The notes under the pieces: generated by a model | Seen by the model: the letters and a program-made list of their open reading frames with translations, nothing else | What the model was told of the DNA's origin: nothing | Databases searched by the model: none | Made by a program: the position numbers and the translations under genes | In this document: positions 24,687-47,898 of the stretch, one piece after another | Numbering within the stretch: the stretch's first letter is position 1 | Layout: every line of letters begins with the position of its first letter | From: Lyophyllum atratum | Taxonomy: Eukaryota; Basidiomycota; Agaricomycetes; Agaricales; Lyophyllaceae | Direction: 5' to 3' | Length of the DNA stretch: 64,000 nucleotides | Assembly (NCBI GenBank): GCA_014905825.1 | Contig: JACGCN010000007.1 | Span: forward strand, 496,001-560,000

Positions 24687-25516
24687 TCCTGGGATTACTA
24701 CAGTCTTCCAATACTGTATATATACTGCACGGTAGCAGAGAATACAACTTCTCTGTTATATCACCTTTTGGCTGAGCTGGTCTTTGCGTGCAGTAAGGCC
24801 GGATTCCACTACCTCGCCCGTGTCGGAGGTTGATTCCGTGGCGCGACTGATATGCTTTGTCTTCATCCTACTTTTACCCGTACTATCACTGTGTGAATAA
24901 GATTCTAAGTTAGAAACTTGAAATCAACTTCAGAAGATCCTAACAATAAAGCTTTGCGCTATTGATAGATCTTAAGACTAAGAATATCGAAGCTACATAG
25001 TACACGCCGATATTCATAGTCAAATCCCGAATACCAAAGCTCCACGCTGGCATTCGAGATCTCTGTCGTCCGATTCCGATCTTTTAAACTTTAAGACTCA
25101 TTTGCATTCAAATCTCATCTTCTAAGTCGTAAACTCTCACGTTATCGACTAGTTTAGGTAAACATTCGAATTTACTTCTTAAAAGAACTACTTACGCGTG
25201 TATTCAAGGAATACACCAAAATTACGCTGAACCGTAATTGGGCGCCACAAACACAATCTTGGTTTTGAGGGAGAATCCAAGGCCTGCGACCGAAGGGGAT
25301 CACCCACACCACGAACGGCGGTACAAGAGTAACGTGTTCTTAATGTGATGGTGGCACACGTGCACATTGGAGAGTAGGACGGTTTGTTTTTAGAATTGTG
25401 AGTTACGTAAGAATTCAAAGAATGACAAACAACTGATCTCGAACGTGACCTATTTTCACGATAAAACCTACTACTAAAGTAGCAAAAAATTTGCAGTAGT
25501 ATGAATATCATGATTC
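24687..25516. other. AT-richer spacer downstream of the NLR gene
   Basis: No coding signal. A small inverted repeat AGAGAATACAACTTCTCT lies at about 24738-24755, near a TATATATA stretch. It could be the end of an old LTR but nothing else supports that. Confidence 0.4.
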
Positions 25517-27143
25517 TCAAACAAGTATACGCTTCCTTGCCTCCAGCACTGCAACTTCCAGTTTCTCTGCCTCATCCAAGCGGCCCAGCCCTGAGTATGT
25601 GGCTGCCAGATTTCCCATGCTGAGGAGTGTGGAAGGATGCTCCTCACCAAGCACTCGCTTCCTTGCCTCCAGCACTGCAATTTCCAGTTTCTCTGCCTCA
25701 TCAAAGCGACCCAGCTCTGAGTATGTTCTTGCCAGATTTGCAATGCTGAGGAGTGTGGAAGGATGCTCCTCACCAAGCACTCGCTTCCTTGCCTCCAGCA
25801 CTGCAATTTTCAGTTTCTCTGCCTCATCAAAGCGGCCCAGCCCTGAGTATGTGGCTGCCAGATTTCCCATGCTGAGGAGTGTGGAAGGATGCTCCTCACC
25901 AAGCACTCGCTTCCTTGCCTCCAGCACTGCAATTTCCAGTTTCTCTGCCTCATCAAAGCGACCCAGCTCTGAGTATGTTCTTGCCAGATTTCCCATGCTG
26001 AGGAGTGTGTCAGGATGCTCCTCACCAAGCACTCGCTTCCTTGCCTCCAGCACTGCAACTTCCAGTTTCTCCGCCTCATCAAAGCGGCCCAGCCCTGAGA
26101 ATGTGGCTGCCAGATTTCCCATGCTGAGGAGTGTGTCAGGATGGTCCTCACCGAGCACTGGCTTCCTTGCCTCCAGCACTGCAATTTTCAGTTTCTCTGC
26201 CTCATCAAAGCGGCCCAGCCCTGAGTATGTGGCTGCCAGATTTCCCATGCTGAGGAGTGTGGAAGGATGCTCCTCACCAAGCACTCGCTTCCTTGCCTCC
26301 AGCACTGCAATTTCCAGTTTCTCTGCCTCATCAAAGCGACCCAGCTCTGAGTATGTTCTTGCCAGATTTGCAATGCCATTCAGTGTGGAAGGATGCTCCT
26401 CCCCAAGCACTCGCTTCCTTGCCTCTAGCACTGCAATTTCCAGTTTCTCTGCCTCATCAAAGCGACCCAGCTCTGAGTATGTTCTTGCCAGATTTGCAAT
26501 GCTGAGGAGTGTGGAAGGATGCTCCTCACCAAGCACTCGCTTCCTTGCCTCCAGCACTGCAATTTTCAGTTTCTCTGCCTCATCAAAGCGGCCCAGCTTT
26601 GAGTATGTTCTTGCCAGATTTCCCATGCTGAGGAGTGTGGAAGGATGCTCCTCACCAAGCACTCGCTTCCTTGCCTCCAGCACTGCAATTTTCAGTTTCT
26701 CTGCCTCATCAAAGCGGCCCAGCTCTGAGAATGTGGCTGCCAGATTTCCCATGCTGATGAGTGTGTAAGGATGCTCCTCACCAAGCACTCGCTTCCTTGC
26801 CTCCAGCACTGTAGTTTCCAGTTTCTCTGCCTCATCAAAGCGGCCCAGCTCTGAGTATGTGGCTGCCAGATTTCCCATGCTGATGAGTGTGGAAGGATGC
26901 TCCTCACCAAGCACTCGCTTCTTTGCCTCCAGCACTGCAATTTTCAGTTTCTCTGCCTCATCAAAGCGGCCCAGCTCTGAGAATGTGGCTGCCAGATTTC
27001 CCATGCTGATGAGTGTGTCAGGATGGTCCTCACCGAGCACTTGCTTCCTTGCCTCCAGCACTGCAACCTGCAGTTCCTCTGCCTTATTAAAGCGCCCCAG
27101 CTCATGGTATGCCGTTGCCAGATTTGCTCTGCTATTGAGAGTT
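25517..27143 (-). repeat. 126-bp tandem array coding for 42-residue TPR repeats
   Basis: Twelve full units and one partial unit are nearly identical in DNA. Each encodes a Kinesin-light-chain-like TPR of the form xxNLAxTYSELGRFDEAEKL followed by a VLEARKRVLGEEHPST-like stretch. Variation is concentrated at a few codons: Met-Gly or Ile-Ala before NLA, Ala or Arg after it, Glu or Gly or Lys before LGRF, and Lys or Glu after EKL. Confidence 0.95.
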
Positions 27144-29004
27144 CTTCCACTATTCAAGCCAGATAACTGGGTGTTTGCTTCGACCAGAGAGACATAAAGC
27201 TTCTCAGCCTCCAGATATCGACCATTTTCATAATAAAGTAATGAAAATCTTTCCAGTAAGGCTGGTTTGATATCTCTGCCATGTTTCAATATAGCATCAA
27301 CATGTGGTTGAAGCACACGTCGAGACTTCATGCTTTCAAGATCAGTCTGTAAACCCAGTGACAGTCCAACTGAGTACTGGGCACAAACTAGGGTGGAGCG
27401 GTCATTCTTAGCCATGGTGCACATCCAGCTGTGCATGAGAGGATGGATATAGAAGACTCTACTGGTGTGATCAAAGTTGATCAAGGAGTACGACTGCAAG
27501 TCAGCCACAATCTCCTGAAAACGGAATGTGTCCCAGCTTTTCACAGGCCTCTGAAAATTTTCCATGACTTTTTGGAGAACAGTTGTTCTCGTAGGCTGAC
27601 AAAATTTATCCAGAAATTTCCGTAGAGCAGGTAAAACAGCAGGATCATCACAGTCGTTTATGGCAGCACAGGAGGCTGCAAACATCTCCTCAGAGATACC
27701 ATCATGATGCATGAAAGAGCAGACTTTTAGAAACATGGCAGCAGCAGGCTGCAGCAGTTTCACACTCATTTCCCAGGTTGTATATACTGTCCACTTATAG
27801 TCATCATGAGTCTGTACAGGCTGGGCTTTCCAGAGCAAGGCCCGGTTCTTTCTGTACAGCTCAAGATAGCCCCAGAGATCCCGAGTCTTTGAAATATAAG
27901 CACCTGCTTGTACAAGTGCAAGAGGAAGACAACTCAGTTCCTTTAATCCCAAACCAATTTAATAAATGGTATGAGTGGAGACTAGGAATGCATACCTTAG
28001 CAATAGCAGCAGCTTGATCTTTCACAGTGTCATTGACAGTGTCACCATCAGTAGCCATAGCTAAGAGGAGATTTATAGCATCATCCTCCTCGAGATCAGG
28101 TACAGAGAACCTTCCATTCCCAGTAGCATAGAGACGCAACTGTGGGTTCCTCGTTGTAATGAGGATATTACCATGAGAGCACCGCGGCAAATACTGTGAC
28201 AGGTCAAGCTTGACATCGTCAGCATTGTTGAAAAACAACAGCCATTCCTGATGTTGACTCGCAAGTGATTGCAAAGCATCATCCGCTGATTTACCAAAAT
28301 GCTTTGCCAGAGAAATGTTGACCAAGTCCACCTTGATAGTGTCAGCAGTTGTCGCATCAATGAAGAAGATATCAGTGAAGCTGAACATTGATTTTGAGTT
28401 CGGACCATCATGAATTGCGAAGTTTCAACACACCGCTTTTTTTGCGCACATGTCTCGACAAATTTATACCCAATTTGTGTCTTTCCTACACCGCCAAGCC
28501 CATATAACACACATACATGACGAGGACCAACTTCATTCTGAAAGTATGCCTCCATCTGTGTGAGAATAGCCTGACGCCCAGTGAAGAGGTGTGACGGGGG
28601 AGGACAGCACTTATAAGCTATGTCTACACAAGCATGAAGATCAGCAACGTGGATGGAGATAACTTTCAACACGCACTGATTAAAGGCTCTGCATTCGGAA
28701 TGACATCTCCTGGCATAGCACCGTAGACATTCATATTGCCTTGGACGTCATTGAAGGTGGAATTATGTATAGTAATATGACGTGCATGAGAGAATGCACC
28801 AGCAGATTGAGTAGGCGTCGATTGAACTAGAGCAAGAGATTGGCCAGCGCCGACTTCGAAATGACTATTGCCGCCACTGATAGCAGTATCGGCAAGGCCA
28901 GCTCCAAGCACTGCCGTATCCGAGGCTTGAGGGGCGTCGCCATGAGCCTTACGAGCCGATCCTATGATAAAGGGCCACTTCAGGAGGCTTCGAGTTTTCG
29001 ACAT
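25517..29004 (-). CDS. NB-ARC/TPR NLR-type receptor (STAND ATPase)
   Basis: Four exons (29004-28722, 28662-28434, 28380-27996, 27940-25517) give 1106 aa. The N-terminal 95 residues include HITIHNSTFNDVQGNMNVY, a segment common at the start of mushroom NLRs. CCPPPSHLFTGR leads into the NB-ARC domain: P-loop GLGGVGKTQ (about residue 150), Walker B WLLFFNNADD, the sensor-like NILITTRNP and LSCLPLALVQAGAYI. A winged-helix part follows with YIHPLMHSWM. The last 540 residues are thirteen TPR repeats. By analogy with HET proteins, such receptors detect ligands through the repeats and oligomerise to trigger regulated cell death or defence. No known effector domain is visible at the N-terminus. The last repeat breaks off with a stop after about 38 residues. 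Confidence 0.9.
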
Positions 29005-41128: not shown

Positions 41129-42498
41129 TCAGAAGTGGTAGTAGTTGATGTATTGTTCCATTTCGAGATCATCGTCGCTGGGGGTTCCAAGGGACGATGT
41201 AGGGGGCAACATGCGGAATTTCTCGTCGTAGAGATCCGAAGCATGCAAGGGTGCGGGATTGAATGAGTCGTAGGGGTTAAGATGGGGGAAATCGTTGAGA
41301 GGGTAGTCGAAGTAGGAAGGCTCGAACTTGATGTCCGGAGATGACCCCGCAGTATCCATAGCCCAATCTGGGTAGGAGGGCGATGCCGCCTCAGGGGTGT
41401 GGAGAGGGGAAGGGCCAACGTCGGGCAAGTCCACGTAGTTATAGTAGAGCTCCACTTGAGTTTCGCCCGCGAGGAAGTCCTCCACCGTCCGAGGAACGCC
41501 AGCGGTGTGGGGCCGGAATTGATCATCGATAAGGTCGTAGCTGGAAGGACGGACCGACGAAAAGTCGGCGTGCGTGTCCTGTGATCAAGATATGATCAGT
41601 CGGCGTGGAGGTGATCAGATAAAACGTAGGCATACCTTTTCGGTCTTTACGGGCGATAATTCCAGAGGCGGTATCTCCGAGGTCGGGACGAACGACCAGC
41701 CGGGAGTGAATAGGCTTTCCGGTTCAGCTAGGATTTCCTCGCGCTTGATGTGGAACGTGGGCTCAGGAGCATCGGAAAGGATGTGAGGCACCTGCGGAAG
41801 GGTGGGAAGGGCGATATCGCTGAGCGGAGAAAGGTTGCGCGTAAGAGGAGAAGCGAGGATGCGCGAGGCGCGATGGGACACGCGTATGGGCTTGGGAACG
41901 AGGGTCTTCTTCACGGAGGGCTGGCTCTTCTTCTTTCCGGCAGCTTTCCGCTTAGAGCTGGGCCCTTTGCATCCTGGAGCGTAAGTGTAGTGGGGAAACT
42001 TGAGTTGGTGGTCCCGCTTCTCCTTCTCAGCCATCAGTTGGAACGGCAACTTCTCTTCGTCACAGAGAGCCTTCCATGCTTTACCGGCAGCGACGCTGAT
42101 TTGATTCTGATCATTGCCGCCCAGTGTTTGGTAGAAGTGAGAGCGATAGAGTATGAAGGCGTTTTTGGGACGGGGAACGTAATCAGCGTTGGAGGGATTA
42201 GCGGCCTTGCCCTTCCCTTTGCTCTTACGACTCGGAACAGGATGGTTCTCGAAGTCAGAGTCGGCTGAGGTTGCTGATGGAGAAGTCGCAGTGGAATGGG
42301 GTGACGATATATCGTTCCGGGTGTAGTCAATCATCGCTGGGAGGGTTTCCCAGCCTTGCTCTAGAGGCCTTCGATCAGCCTCCAAGTCCAAGATGCGACT
42401 CGACAGAATAAAAAAAACGAACCATCATATGCAATGGGAACTTTGTTCCAGATTCTTCCAGAGGATCGGCGAGTCTTCAAGTTGCGAAAAGCAGGCAT
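41129..42498 (-). CDS. HMG-box transcription factor (MATA_HMG type)
   Basis: Three exons (42498-42423, 42360-41636, 41578-41129) give 416 aa. The HMG box lies at about residues 85-155 and begins YVPRPKNAFILYRSHFY, with SVAAGKAWKALCDEEKLPF and KEKRDHQLKFPHYTYAPG further on. The RPxNAFILYR start is that of the MATA_HMG class, which includes mating-type, Ste11-like and other basidiomycete regulators of development. A basic stretch KRKAAGKKKSQPSVKK follows the box and may be a nuclear signal. The C-terminal half is acidic and rich in Pro, Asp, Tyr and Phe (for example DIKFEPSYFDYPLNDFPHL), as in activation domains. No pheromone or receptor genes lie nearby, so this is probably not the mating-type locus. 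The first intron (42422-42361) is the least certain join. Confidence 0.88.
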
Positions 42499-42852: not shown

Positions 42853-42860
42853 ATTTATTA
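42853..42860. repeat. Target site duplication, left copy
   Basis: TTTATTAG, identical to the eight bases at 47891-47898 directly outside the other end of the element. Confidence 0.92.
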
Positions 42861-42894
42861 GCAAGAGGTGTCAAATCGGTTGATCACGGACATG
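42861..42894 (+). repeat. Left terminal inverted repeat
   Basis: Starts CAAGAGGTGTCAAATCGG. All 34 bases match the reverse complement of 47857-47890 except one (position 20, T against C); similarity stops directly inside. Confidence 0.93.
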
Positions 42895-43105
42895 GGATCT
42901 GGTTCCCAGTTTGGAAACGGTGATTCCCGAAACACGGCAAGGCGACGGCACCCATCAACAACATCAATCCGGCATGCGGCCGGCAAGCCTCGGCAATCCT
43001 CCAGGAGCAGCGCACTGAGGGCAGCGTAGAGGTTCAGCAGTAGAAATAAGGAGTGAGATGTATCTAAGACGGTTAATGAAAGTATAGAAAGTATTTAAGG
43101 TACCA

Positions 43106-46100
43106 CTAGTGGAAGACATCATCGTAATTTTGATAGACACCGGCAGACAGAGATGGTGCTGAGATGGATAGGGAGAAAGGTGGAGGGGTAGGACGCATAC
43201 TAGTATACTGTGCTGGACTTATGTAGCGAGGTCTGCGAGGAGAGTCGCCATGATGGTCATGGATATGCGGGAGGGTGTGTGATCGACGTGCATCGTATGT
43301 GTCAATTACAAGAGCGGAGCGGCCTTGAAATTCCTCTGGTATCCCAAGCTTTGTCTCCTCCTCGCTACTAATTGATATCTTCTCGGAGAAGTCAGCAATC
43401 TCAGGAGAAGCTGTACCTTTTTCCCAGGACGGATGCCGCTCCTGTAGGTGCCGGCGTATGTTATACTTCCAGTGCACTTCCGTGCAGAACTTGCACACAA
43501 CAGGCACGTTTGTGCACGGTTTCTGCTTCGATATTTTGGATGCGGCACTGATTCTGAATTCATATACCTGAGGACAGCTTGAGACTGCCTTGCCGCTGAC
43601 AATGCGTAGCTGGCATGCCCCGTTGACACTTGATTGACCACAGAATCCGCAAGGATAGTCTATGGAAAGCTAAAACGACGTGATCAGCCAATCAATCATG
43701 TAAAGGAGGTTTAAGATTGTACATACCGTTCCCAGGTTTTCTCCCGTCTCTATCACACCTCTAATTTTCCGAAGGAGGTGTCCACCCATATGATTTTGAC
43801 GATCAGGCCCAGAAACTTGACGGTGGCAGACGTTGCACGCTTTGGGAGCATTCGCAGCGCAGGGGGCTGCAATAGATGTAGTGTAATGATCTATAGCTGT
43901 CGTTGTTCGATCGGGTCCATCTATTGAAAGTAGTCATTATGACAAGTCACGACTCACAAGGTTGACGGATTTGTCAAAGAAATAAACGTACTGAGTACTG
44001 CTCTGTACGGAAAGGAGCCTTCACGAACCGAGCCAAAAAGTGGTATCTTGGATAGTGCATCACTGTCACTGGAGACTCGCTCGTGAAGAAGAGACTCGAT
44101 GTCCCGCATGTAAGTTTCCGTTATTACCCAAGTCTTCTCCATCGTACTTGGTACCAAGTCGGGTGCAAGCTGTAACGCTTCCCGTCGAGTTGATCTACAC
44201 TGTTCAGGGAGTAATGGGTAGACAATACGACCATTGACTGGAATGCTGAGGTGGTTGAGACGTGTAATCGATGTTGAATGGGTAGTGCGGGACTTTGCGG
44301 TGTTAAGTGCGACGAATCTAGAAGTCCAAACCCACGAGGACATTGAGATTCCTTGTGAAGAACAGATCATGGCGGGGATAAGGGAAAGAATCTGTCCAGA
44401 GACGTCATACTTCGAATCGGGAAGAGAAATCTCGTCAACTGGTACGGAATCGAGATATTGTGAAGCAGACTTCAATAGTGTGCACTGAAGAACTGCTACG
44501 CAAATCCGGTTCTGATCAATGCAGACCAGAGTTGCATAGAGCGAGCCTATAGAAAAGAGCTGACGGCCCGACAAAGGAGATCCAGAATATACATGTGTCG
44601 CCTTGGAACGGTCCCAGTGATCACCGCCAATTGAAAAGTAGCGAACCCGGAGCAAGCGATCGTGGCTTTTGTTATAATCTACATCCAAGGATGGGTCCAT
44701 GAAAAGACGCAGGATGGTCTTCTTGTGACCTGGCTTACCACCTTCCAGTTCCATCCAAATGGAGTGCGGCTGGTCAGGCCCATCGGACTGACTCCTCTGT
44801 ACCTCAGCTTCGCGTGCAGCCTCGCCGTCAAAGGACCGGAAGGTATACTCTGCCTCGGGTTCAATCTCGTCATGCATTTCCTCAGCTTCTCCCAACGACC
44901 GATCTACCTCAGATGAAATCCCAGGATACTTGCCACCTTTGGGTCTCATGAGGTCAATTCCGATTGCCCTCCAGTCTCGGAAGTGCTCAGAGAAATTAAT
45001 GGTGTACCCAAACTTTGAAAGAGCGGCCTCCGCCTGACGAACACCTTCAGACCAGCATGCAAGGAGATCACAGGTACATGCTCTCAACTCACCCCGCCAC
45101 TGCCGAGGAGTGAGGTGGTCAGCATCACGACTGCGCTGTAGCTTCAAACGATATGGTCGACGTTCCCAGTCTGGGTGGCGTTCGAAAGCTGAATCGAGAC
45201 GTATGGCAGATCCAAAGCGATTACGGAGCTCTGAAATGTCAACGTTAGGGGAATGTCCCCCGATCATTCGCACCCGGCCAAACAGAACCTCGAGAACATC
45301 GTCTCCAAGAAGGCAAATGAAGACTTTTCGCTGGGGATCGAGGATCTTTGTGTGGGCTACTCGAAAGACAGCAGTTCGGACCATGCACTGTAAGTCGCTG
45401 TAGAGGTGCTGAGGCATAAAGTCACCCTCGTGCTTCAGGAACAAGGCGCATGCAATGTGTGCAAACTTGATAAGGCCGGTAATCTGCTGCGAAATGGCGA
45501 AGTCGGGGTTGATGAATGGCTCAAGGAGCGCTTCAAGCATCTCGCCAAGCAGAGAAAGAGCGCGATGGGTATTTTGTTCTGAGGGATCAAATGCGGAGTT
45601 GTCGAGATTGCGAATGTCAGCAGTGATATTCAGCAGCTTAATAGCTCTTGGTACGTCCTGTGCATCTTTAGGGCTGAGGAGAGCATGTATGCGTTCGGAA
45701 ATTGAAGAATCAGAGTTGAGGAGTGAATATATCGAGTTTTTCGACCAGTCGACGTCAGTCAGACGCTCAAACCAAAGCGCGAGGAGACTTTTGTTGATAA
45801 TAACATCACCAATCAGGATCCCCTCTCGCGCGCAAAGCAGCTTGCATAGGCCTCGAAAGAAGTCAGCAGATTTCGAGAACAGAAGCTAGATTAGTGTACC
45901 TACGTTTGAAACAATGCTTATAATCTAAATCCTGTGTTTCGCCGTTAGGACCTGTCCACACGTTCATTCCAGGAAGATTTTCGAGATGTTGGAAGAGTGG
46001 ATCCGTAGGACGAAGCTCGCGGGTCATACAGTGAAGATATAGAGCAGGCCTTCGTTTAGGGTCACCGTCTGACGCTATTGACCAGATTGGACCGTGAAGG

Positions 46101-47565
46101 CTCTCTCCGTATGGCGAAATCTTCCATGCCTGCCGAAGCATCTCCATGACGAGTGCAGAGTCTCGAAATGAGCCTCGTTTACACGTTGGGATTAATAAAA
46201 CAGGCCTGGCACCATAGCCCTCCTCATCGTTGCGAGCAAAAGCAGCCACGAAAACCTCCTGCCCGACATGTATTTTACCTTCTTGTAATGCCTGTCGAAC
46301 CGCACGCACTACATCGAGATTCGTTCCCATTTTCAACGACGATAACTCTGTCGCGGCATGCTCACAGAGCCCAGCAATTTCGTCAGTTATGGTAAGGTAA
46401 CACAACCTGCCATCGCTCGCAATTTCGTCCATGGAAAGTGTTATCCCAGCCCTCGAATGTCCAGGCTTAACATCCGCAAACATGATCCCAATGTTCGCGA
46501 GGATGTCGGACATCGTGATGGCCCCGACTGTGATGTGCAGACGGAACTCTCTGCGGTGCTCGAGGAGAGTATTGCGACACGGGAATACAAAGGGCGAATT
46601 ATGGAGCGCATGAAGAGCTGCATCACCGCCAAGCTCATAAACGACGGTGGCAAGTTCAATCTCGAGGTCGGAGTAGCTTCGAGCGTGATAGTCTCCGGCC
46701 AGAGCCATCTTGATCTTTTCGAGTAGATGCTCCGCACTCCAATTGCGACGCTTCGAATTCTTGAAGATGCGATGTAAGGCGGGTACATCTTGAGTGCCGA
46801 CAAGGTCGAGAATGTGCTTCCAAGTATCTTGGTGAACACGGAGGCGAGCGAGTGCCCGAGAGACGTTAAGACGCTGCGAGAAGATCAGAAATGACGATTA
46901 ACAGTGAGGCTACTGTACGCACCTCGAGAGTTACATCTTTCAGATCCTGCTCTACTTCTTTCAACCTCTCTCTAAGTTGACCATTGCTCATACTGGTATG
47001 ATCGAGCCTCGTTGCAGGCTTTTTCGTACGATCTTTGACAGCTGCGACGAGCGAGCTCGTAGTCTGACAAGCAAAGCATGGGCCGGCGATGGTGGACAGC
47101 AGTCCAGTGCAATGAGGTGACCGAACAGAAAGAGTGGAGTCCCGAGGATCGATGGAAACGAGATCGTACCCTGGGGTGAAACGGGAAGCAGGATCGTGGA
47201 TGGAAAAAGGATAGGTCACATATGGTGAACCTAGATCCCATTGAAATCTTGCGCCTTTACATCGCGAGGGCTCGGTGTGGGACACAGAAAGATCAGATCT
47301 ATCTATTTCCTCAAGAACCCGTTCTGAGTACACGGAAATAGTTGAGTAATAGTAGATGAAATGATATGATATTGTTACGCACTTGCAAGTCCCAATCTAC
47401 ACTTCTGATTTCGCTCGTGCTTACGAAGAGCATTCGTTGTAGTTCTATCTTGACCGTGATTAACGTATTCGTGGCAGAATTTACAGAGGACAAGGCGGTA
47501 TCCGCTCGCGGCGTCGAGTTTTTCGAGTGGTAATCCAGAATGTGTCCCGGTTGGTAGTGTAGCAT
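43106..47565 (-). CDS. Transposase-like protein with zinc-binding C-terminus
   Basis: Six exons (47565-47383, 47309-46923, 46873-45904, 45851-43992, 43920-43737, 43679-43106) give 1385 aa with no stop. The N-terminal quarter has cysteine pairs (GPCFACQ) and a short coiled coil (SNGQLRERLKEVEQDLKD). ARLRVHQDTWKHILDLVG and LATVVYELGGDAALHAL follow. A candidate catalytic site is ITLSMDEIASDGRLCYL, with the Asp near residue 339, and a later block FICLLGDDVLEVLFGRVRMI recalls the helical insertion end of P/THAP9- and hAT-type transposases. The last 250 residues hold at least three Cys/His clusters: CNVCH with HMGGH, CGFCG, and CKFC with RRHLQERH, which probably bind DNA. The family is common in agaricomycete genomes but I cannot place it in a named superfamily. 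It lies wholly inside the inverted repeats. Confidence 0.85.
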
Positions 47566-47856
47566 TATGAGATAGATTTGAGAATGTATGAACAGAGAAA
47601 TGAGGATTAGGCTCTGATACAGTATTTACAGTATCAAGGCTCCATGATGAGAGTGATATGTCGGGGCAGACGCGTCTCCAAGGCTAGATAAGAGCAGGCC
47701 GTGCAGAGAGAGACGCGTCAGGTCGATGCCAGGGTCCTTTGCTCACGTTAATGCCGTTCGGATGCCGCTCATCACTTGCCGTGCTGCCGTTGGTCAACAC
47801 AAGTACCAACAGCTTCCTTATTTGGGGGGGTAGGTGGGGGGTACCCTAGCCATCAA

Positions 47857-47890
47857 CCATGTCCGTGATCGACCGATTTGACACCTCTTG
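47857..47890 (-). repeat. Right terminal inverted repeat
   Basis: Reverse complement of the left end with one mismatch; its outermost bases read ACACCTCTTG on the plus strand. Confidence 0.93.
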
Positions 47891-47898
47891 TTTATTAG
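47891..47898. repeat. Target site duplication, right copy
   Basis: TTTATTAG, the second copy of the eight bases duplicated at insertion. Confidence 0.92.

Follow-up and report, generated by a model that had tools for sequence, protein, structure and literature searches.

The closest described relatives of the element reported here are probably the DNA transposons of the P superfamily, of which the Drosophila P element (6P5A, 6PE2) makes 8-bp target duplications and encodes a transposase of 751 amino acids. According to an excerpt of PMC7776569, terminal inverted repeats (TIRs) in this superfamily measure about 13-31 bp and those of Drosophila P 31 bp; the THAP9 and zebrafish P-like elements carry a THAP domain and have 13-bp TIRs with subterminal repeats, and the zebrafish element shows 8-bp duplications and deleted non-autonomous copies. 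Within Basidiomycota, P elements of rust fungi were reported in 2011 (P-1_PSt, P-1_MLP, P-2_MLP, P-N1_MLP and P-N2_MLP; Repbase), with 8-bp duplications at the Melampsora copies, as stated in a passage of PMC3164196. Here, a 64,000-bp stretch of the mushroom Lyophyllum atratum (the window; G000:C119:496001-560000 of a 64.8-Mb, 151-contig assembly) was found to contain a complete transposon with 34-bp TIRs and an 8-bp target duplication, which is read as a cut-and-paste DNA transposon of the P superfamily from a divergent lineage in mushroom-forming fungi (probability roughly 0.92). The element resembles those of the rusts in superfamily and in its basidiomycete host, although the hosts there are rusts and not mushrooms, and this likeness is one of description rather than of sequence.

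Ends, empty alleles and further copies of the element

The element is bounded by the termini CAAGAG..CTCTTG (Table 1). A preliminary description of the window had proposed two inverted 34-bp ends with one mismatch, flanked directly on the outside by the 8-bp duplication TTTATTAG, and both statements were confirmed (33/34 positions alike); of the coordinates given there, those of the right TIR (47857-47890) were correct, while the left end had been placed at 42861, one base ahead of its true start at 42862. The first 18 bp of the TIR occur twice in the window, compared to 0.05 occurrences expected by chance with up to three mismatches permitted. TTTATTAG by itself is not rare (three occurrences in the window compared to 1.1 expected), and its weight therefore lies in its exact position and in the empty allele.

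Several loci of the assembly pair up, from which we infer that it holds two haplotypes. An empty site with a single TTTATTAG, as anticipated for other strains in the preliminary description, was found in the other haplotype of this same assembly: on C2 the match to the left flank of the window element ends at 557546 and the match to the right flank starts at 557539, the exactly 8 bases common to both (C2:557539-557546) being one TTTATTAG at the junction, and the two flanks are 95% and 98% identical to those in the window. A complete DNA transposon that is present in one haplotype only is supported. A search for empty sites covered five copies, two of which (the window element and the copy at C2:1249780, L033) gave a clean result; the allelic place of the latter on C119 is empty, with a single AGTTTACA and a flank overlap of exactly 8 bases. 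The C94 copy (L032) has an element-free allele on C97, but with 5 bp different at the join, and the other haplotype gave no readable junction for L036 or L031. Two more related loci (C73 and C35) are also empty, their flanks being 78-87% identical.

In the whole-element search of the assembly at least 33 matching pieces were obtained, and all eight exact copies of the 18-bp TIR tip listed for the assembly sit in element-matching stretches. Twelve further regions were examined. Both ends are present in six, each copy being flanked by its own perfect 8-bp duplication (Table 1), while no end pair with an 8-bp duplication was found in five (L034, L035, L039, L041 and L042). The remaining region (L031) has a single end, yet the same 8 bases, TGCTCCCG, precede and follow the copy; it is 99.4% identical to the window element over 2,360 bp (L031:1019-3378, G000:C75:655718-658077), the rest being lost, and its broken end has TTG before TGCTCCCG, as at the lost end. 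This copy would fit a product of incomplete excision or gap repair. The dispersed copies include short, gene-less, non-autonomous ones. Many copies with different 8-bp duplications had been expected; the duplications do differ, but the copy number is modest (the pieces counted above and six complete copies besides that of the window). There was no mutual match at E 1e-3 among the 270-bp outer flanks of the window element and the six complete copies, so that similarity stops at the element ends; similarity continuing past the TIRs, named beforehand as refuting a transposon, was absent from these flanks. A separate observation concerns G000:C113:172254-172400 (L039:755-901), where three element tips stand in tandem in the same orientation with 48-bp spacing.

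The same data bear on the alternative that a domesticated host gene sits by chance between inverted repeats. An intact reading frame and the constraint on the protein in a sister family (see below) would suit such a gene, but the element is missing from the sister haplotype, where a clean single target site is found, and there are dispersed copies with separate target duplications, some of them gene-less; this alternative is considered scarcely credible.

Predicted transposase and its probable assignment to the P superfamily

The gene of the transposon lies on the minus strand and was modelled with six exons and 1,426 codons, the count starting at the first complete codon of exon 1, with no stop or frameshift; exon 1 is without an ATG, and a tentative start exon would add nine codons, giving 1,435. 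All six modelled introns (49-71 bp) are GT..AG, their splice sites having been picked by eye and by relatives and not from transcripts, and the reading frames agree with those of the same-genome relatives L032 and L033 at approximately 61% identity (tblastn). The single intact gene first described was retained in this model, although its length had been put at 1,385 codons. Zinc-finger-like clusters were found at residues 73-101, 189-192, 1212-1215, 1255-1258 and 1307-1327. Between two full-length copies of a sister family, synonymous divergence (dS) was 0.035 and non-synonymous divergence (dN) 0.003 over 606 codons, a difference which suggests that the protein of that family is under selection; between the window copy and either of these, synonymous change is saturated (approximately 0.79), with non-synonymous change of approximately 0.225.

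Table 1. Coordinates of the window element, its parts and its complete copies elsewhere in the assembly
Feature	Position	Strand	Basis or remark
Complete P-superfamily-like DNA transposon (probable assignment), 5,029 bp	42862..47890	- (gene strand)	Ends, copies, empty allele, gene model
Left target-site duplication, TTTATTAG	42854..42861	.	Single at empty-allele junction G000:C2:557539-557546
Left 34-bp TIR, starts CAAGAGGTGTCA, downstream of the gene's stop	42862..42895	+	Sequence comparison
Last exon: CxxC/H zinc-finger-like C-terminus (CGFC.., CKFC..H..H), stop codon 43106-43108	43106..43669	-	Gene-model inference; frame supported by L032, L033
Exon with CNVC..H..H cluster	43727..43920	-	Gene model
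Large exon: remaining helical insertion domain, E751 (45289-45291), P-element motif D748-x-x-E751, C-terminal region	43992..45851	-	Gene model, profile alignment
Exon: helix-turn-helix region, D389 (46427-46429), D509 (46067-46069), D557xxH560xxK563 of insertion domain	45904..46873	-	Gene model, profile alignment
Exon 2, includes CFAC cluster	46923..47323	-	Gene model
Exon 1, N-terminal CKFC..H..C zinc-finger-like cluster (47399-47485), no THAP match	47383..47675	-	Gene model
Tentative start exon, 26 bp (ATG, seven more codons, two bases)	47747..47772	-	Inference; GTGAGC..GAG intron; unsupported by relatives
Right 34-bp TIR, 33/34 identical to left TIR	47857..47890	-	Sequence comparison
Right target-site duplication, TTTATTAG	47891..47898	.	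Adjoins right TIR; empty allele
Complete copy, 748 bp	C119:1082401-1083148		Perfect 8-bp duplication
Complete copy, 740 bp	C13:1218154-1218893		Perfect 8-bp duplication
Complete copy, 1,225 bp	C108:6895-8119		Perfect 8-bp duplication
Complete copy, 8,574 bp	C64:303577-312150		Perfect 8-bp duplication
Complete copy, 4,979 bp	C94:300969-305947		Perfect 8-bp duplication
Complete copy, 4,965 bp	C2:1249780-1254744		Perfect 8-bp duplication

The superfamily had initially been left open between hAT, P, Zisupton/KDZ and Plavaka; the structure, the comparison of profiles and the conserved motifs all point to P, and the element was assigned there on these grounds. The model of a close relative (P0002) and the family profile show a transposase core that has the fold of the P element and a D-D-E triad. 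The top match of a fold search with this model was P transposase, model residues 45-559 being aligned to P 144-566 (first and last aligned residues) across the insertion domain. As in Drosophila P, a helix-turn-helix accompanies an RNase H core carrying D-D-E, and between the second D and the E, where P has its GTP-binding domain, lies a helical insertion domain (model helices 331-507); a P-type core is likewise shared with the THAP9 and zebrafish P-like elements. D389, D509 and E751 are the predicted first, second and third catalytic acids, and in alignment A1 (99 sequences) these are found in 95, 97 and 94 sequences, respectively. The insertion-domain motifs DxxHxxK and QxVxxA are common to the family and P, as is the D at position -3 from the catalytic E, a GTP contact of the fly enzyme, and the full P motif DxxHxxKxxRN is present in six out of six of P0104-P0109. 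The 8-bp duplication that is a feature of the superfamily was found at the window copy and at the six other complete copies.

Some of these features are shared with other superfamilies. hAT elements are recognised by a hAT-type transposase core and a C-terminal dimerisation domain. A hAT transposon could also account for 8-bp duplications, a zinc finger and an insertion domain between the second D and E, as hAT (Hermes) has an RNase H core with an insertion domain and, in an excerpt of PMC12730594, 8-bp duplications are given as usual for hAT; this identity is rated as very improbable. An element of the KDZ (Zisupton/Dileera/Kyakuja) or Plavaka type is rated as more improbable still. The same excerpt (PMC12730594) describes TET-bearing KDZ/Plavaka members from mushrooms and 8-bp duplications for Zisupton, which fit the element, but gives Plavaka 2-3 bp duplications with ends TGT..ACA or CATCA..TGATG, and Kyakuja 7-bp duplications without TIRs, compared to 8 bp, CAAGAG..CTCTTG and 34-bp TIRs here. 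No such family was present among the Pfam matches of 24 members. The top fold match to P also argues against KDZ, although weakly, since to our knowledge there is no solved KDZ structure. Identity as a hAT, Plavaka or KDZ element is not supported.

A number of results weigh against the assignment to P. The fold model is that of the relative P0002 and not of the spliced window protein, identity to P transposase is 13-18%, and five out of five block-shuffled decoys still matched the E-motif region, so that this one motif accounts for some of the profile score. There was no Pfam match above the curated cut-off for the window protein or for 24 relatives, nor any useful match in a sequence search of the PDB. 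Six unrelated Pfam families matched single members at E 0.002 to 0.92 (DUF5363 at 0.002, Sina_ZnF at 0.03, zf-TFIIIC at 0.031 and three weaker), so that Pfam matches alone would prove nothing; PF21787 matched three times, with two of the matches located. The element showed no exact 11-bp inverted repeats in subterminal position, and the THAP domain (PF05485) gave no match for the window protein (E limit 10) or for 24 relatives (E limit 1), compared to a match at 1.6e-6 for fly P. As no THAP domain was found, the element was not filed in the animal P/THAP9 clade; the domain is reported as confined to animals in the excerpt of PMC7776569.

The GTP-contacting residues of the fly enzyme, given there as D528, K385, K400, V401, S409, F443, D444 and N447 (PMC7776569), were mapped by profile alignment and not by residue-level structure superposition. 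Counterparts of D528 and V401 are kept in 95/99 and 97/99 sequences. Also unfavourable to the assignment, the position of K400 is D or N in 87/99 and K in none, that of N447 is L, V or I in 97/99, and that of S409 is S in 9/99. At F443 there is F in 38/99 and L in 44/99, at D444 there is D or E in 67/99, and K385 falls in an unaligned stretch. In contrast to Drosophila P, the mushroom GTP pocket is without K400 and N447, with S409 and F443 mostly changed. The mushroom protein also differs from Drosophila P in lacking a THAP match and having zinc-finger-like clusters at both ends, in its length (approximately 1,430 amino acids), in the spacing from first to second D (120 compared to 73 residues) and in an extra C-terminal region beyond the core, a beta-rich fold without a clear match. 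The TIRs, at 34 bp, are close to those of the fly element.

It is conceivable, though doubtful, that these differences mark an old mushroom P-type lineage in which the THAP domain was lost or never present and the GTP pocket was rebuilt, with K400 replaced by D or N; transposition of mushroom P-type elements may need no GTP or may use a different cofactor. If the pocket has been rebuilt, the lineage would offer a natural contrast from which to ask why GTP is used by P elements, and might form a sister superfamily of its own. Such a superfamily, of the same fold and ancestry as P but with diverged DNA-binding domains and GTP pocket, overlaps with the reading as a divergent P lineage and is regarded as a rather unlikely alternative. 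The low identity, the long protein, which has a C-terminal region of its own as well as zinc-finger-like clusters, the lack of a curated Pfam match and the altered GTP-contacting positions favour it, whereas the common 8-bp duplication, the similar TIR length, the shared insertion-domain motifs and D at E-3, and the full motif in P0104-P0109 argue for placement within P, and the boundary between lineage and superfamily is one of convention.

By analogy with P elements, the encoded protein would pair both ends of the element, after using its helix-turn-helix and zinc fingers to bind the 34-bp ends, and a predicted RNase H-type active site (D389/D509/E751) would excise it. The ends would then be joined 8 bp apart in new DNA, an 8-bp stagger, and the shorter, gene-less copies would be mobilised in trans by the same enzyme. 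Ends, duplications, empty alleles and deleted copies were observed directly at these loci; the enzyme's part in producing them is proposed from this likeness to P.

Distribution among mushrooms

A protein search with residues 240-800 yielded 109 proteins from 7,992 scored candidates. A source name is carried by 105 of these, and by reading of the names all are Agaricomycetes, from 20 genera. With the exception of P0099, which has an amino-acid transporter domain, the proteins are without a precomputed Pfam domain (108/109), and a transposase domain was present in the precomputed Pfam annotation of none of the 109. Repeat annotation based on such domain libraries would probably miss the family. 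As had been proposed, the complete copy ties this protein family to a transposon, and the family of 20 named mushroom genera gains a likely transposon identity and superfamily; around 100 mushroom proteins formerly listed only as hypothetical have likely been given an identity.

There was no account of P elements in mushrooms among the literature matches listed, although Repbase, which was not covered, may contain some, and as the rust report came to light solely through a passage of text, similar reports on mushrooms may likewise be hidden. Given the rust-fungus report of 2011, P elements in Basidiomycota are not new as such, and the mushroom lineage is read as a divergent branch of a known superfamily. 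With it, mushrooms would be added to the known hosts of P-type elements, alongside animals and rusts, and the part that GTP plays in P transposition would become open to comparison. The complete copy, known ends, empty allele, non-autonomous partners and structural model make this a directly testable mobile element.

Neighbouring and nested features

An HMG-box reading frame (PF00505, E 1e-11) was found at window positions 41615-42391, with its upstream end approximately 470 bp from the insertion and its transcription pointing away from the element; the HMG-box promoter could be affected by the insertion in one haplotype. Elsewhere in the window (25405-27216) there is a tandem array with a 126-bp unit, for which 13 overlapping 300-nt register copies were compared, 12 of the 13 being 67-97% identical to the reference copy.

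Two nested inserts were observed at L040. The larger, of 6,469 bp (L040:2688-9156, G000:C64:305587-312055), lies inside a 1.2-kb P-like non-autonomous element and contains two divergently oriented genes, one for DUF6589 (PF20231, E 8.8e-105) and one for DEAD/Helicase_C, the latter in several frames. Its ends are TAG(G/A)CTCG..ACC, and approximately 9 bases, AATGCTGCC, are duplicated there and single in the uninterrupted relative L038. The insert is apparently a DUF6589-helicase transposon; a literature search on DUF6589 and transposition found no paper. The second insert, of 820 bp (L040:851-1670, G000:C64:303750-304569), is nested in that P-like element as well, has CCTTTATC at both sides and imperfect inverted ends, and is another small element with an 8-bp duplication.

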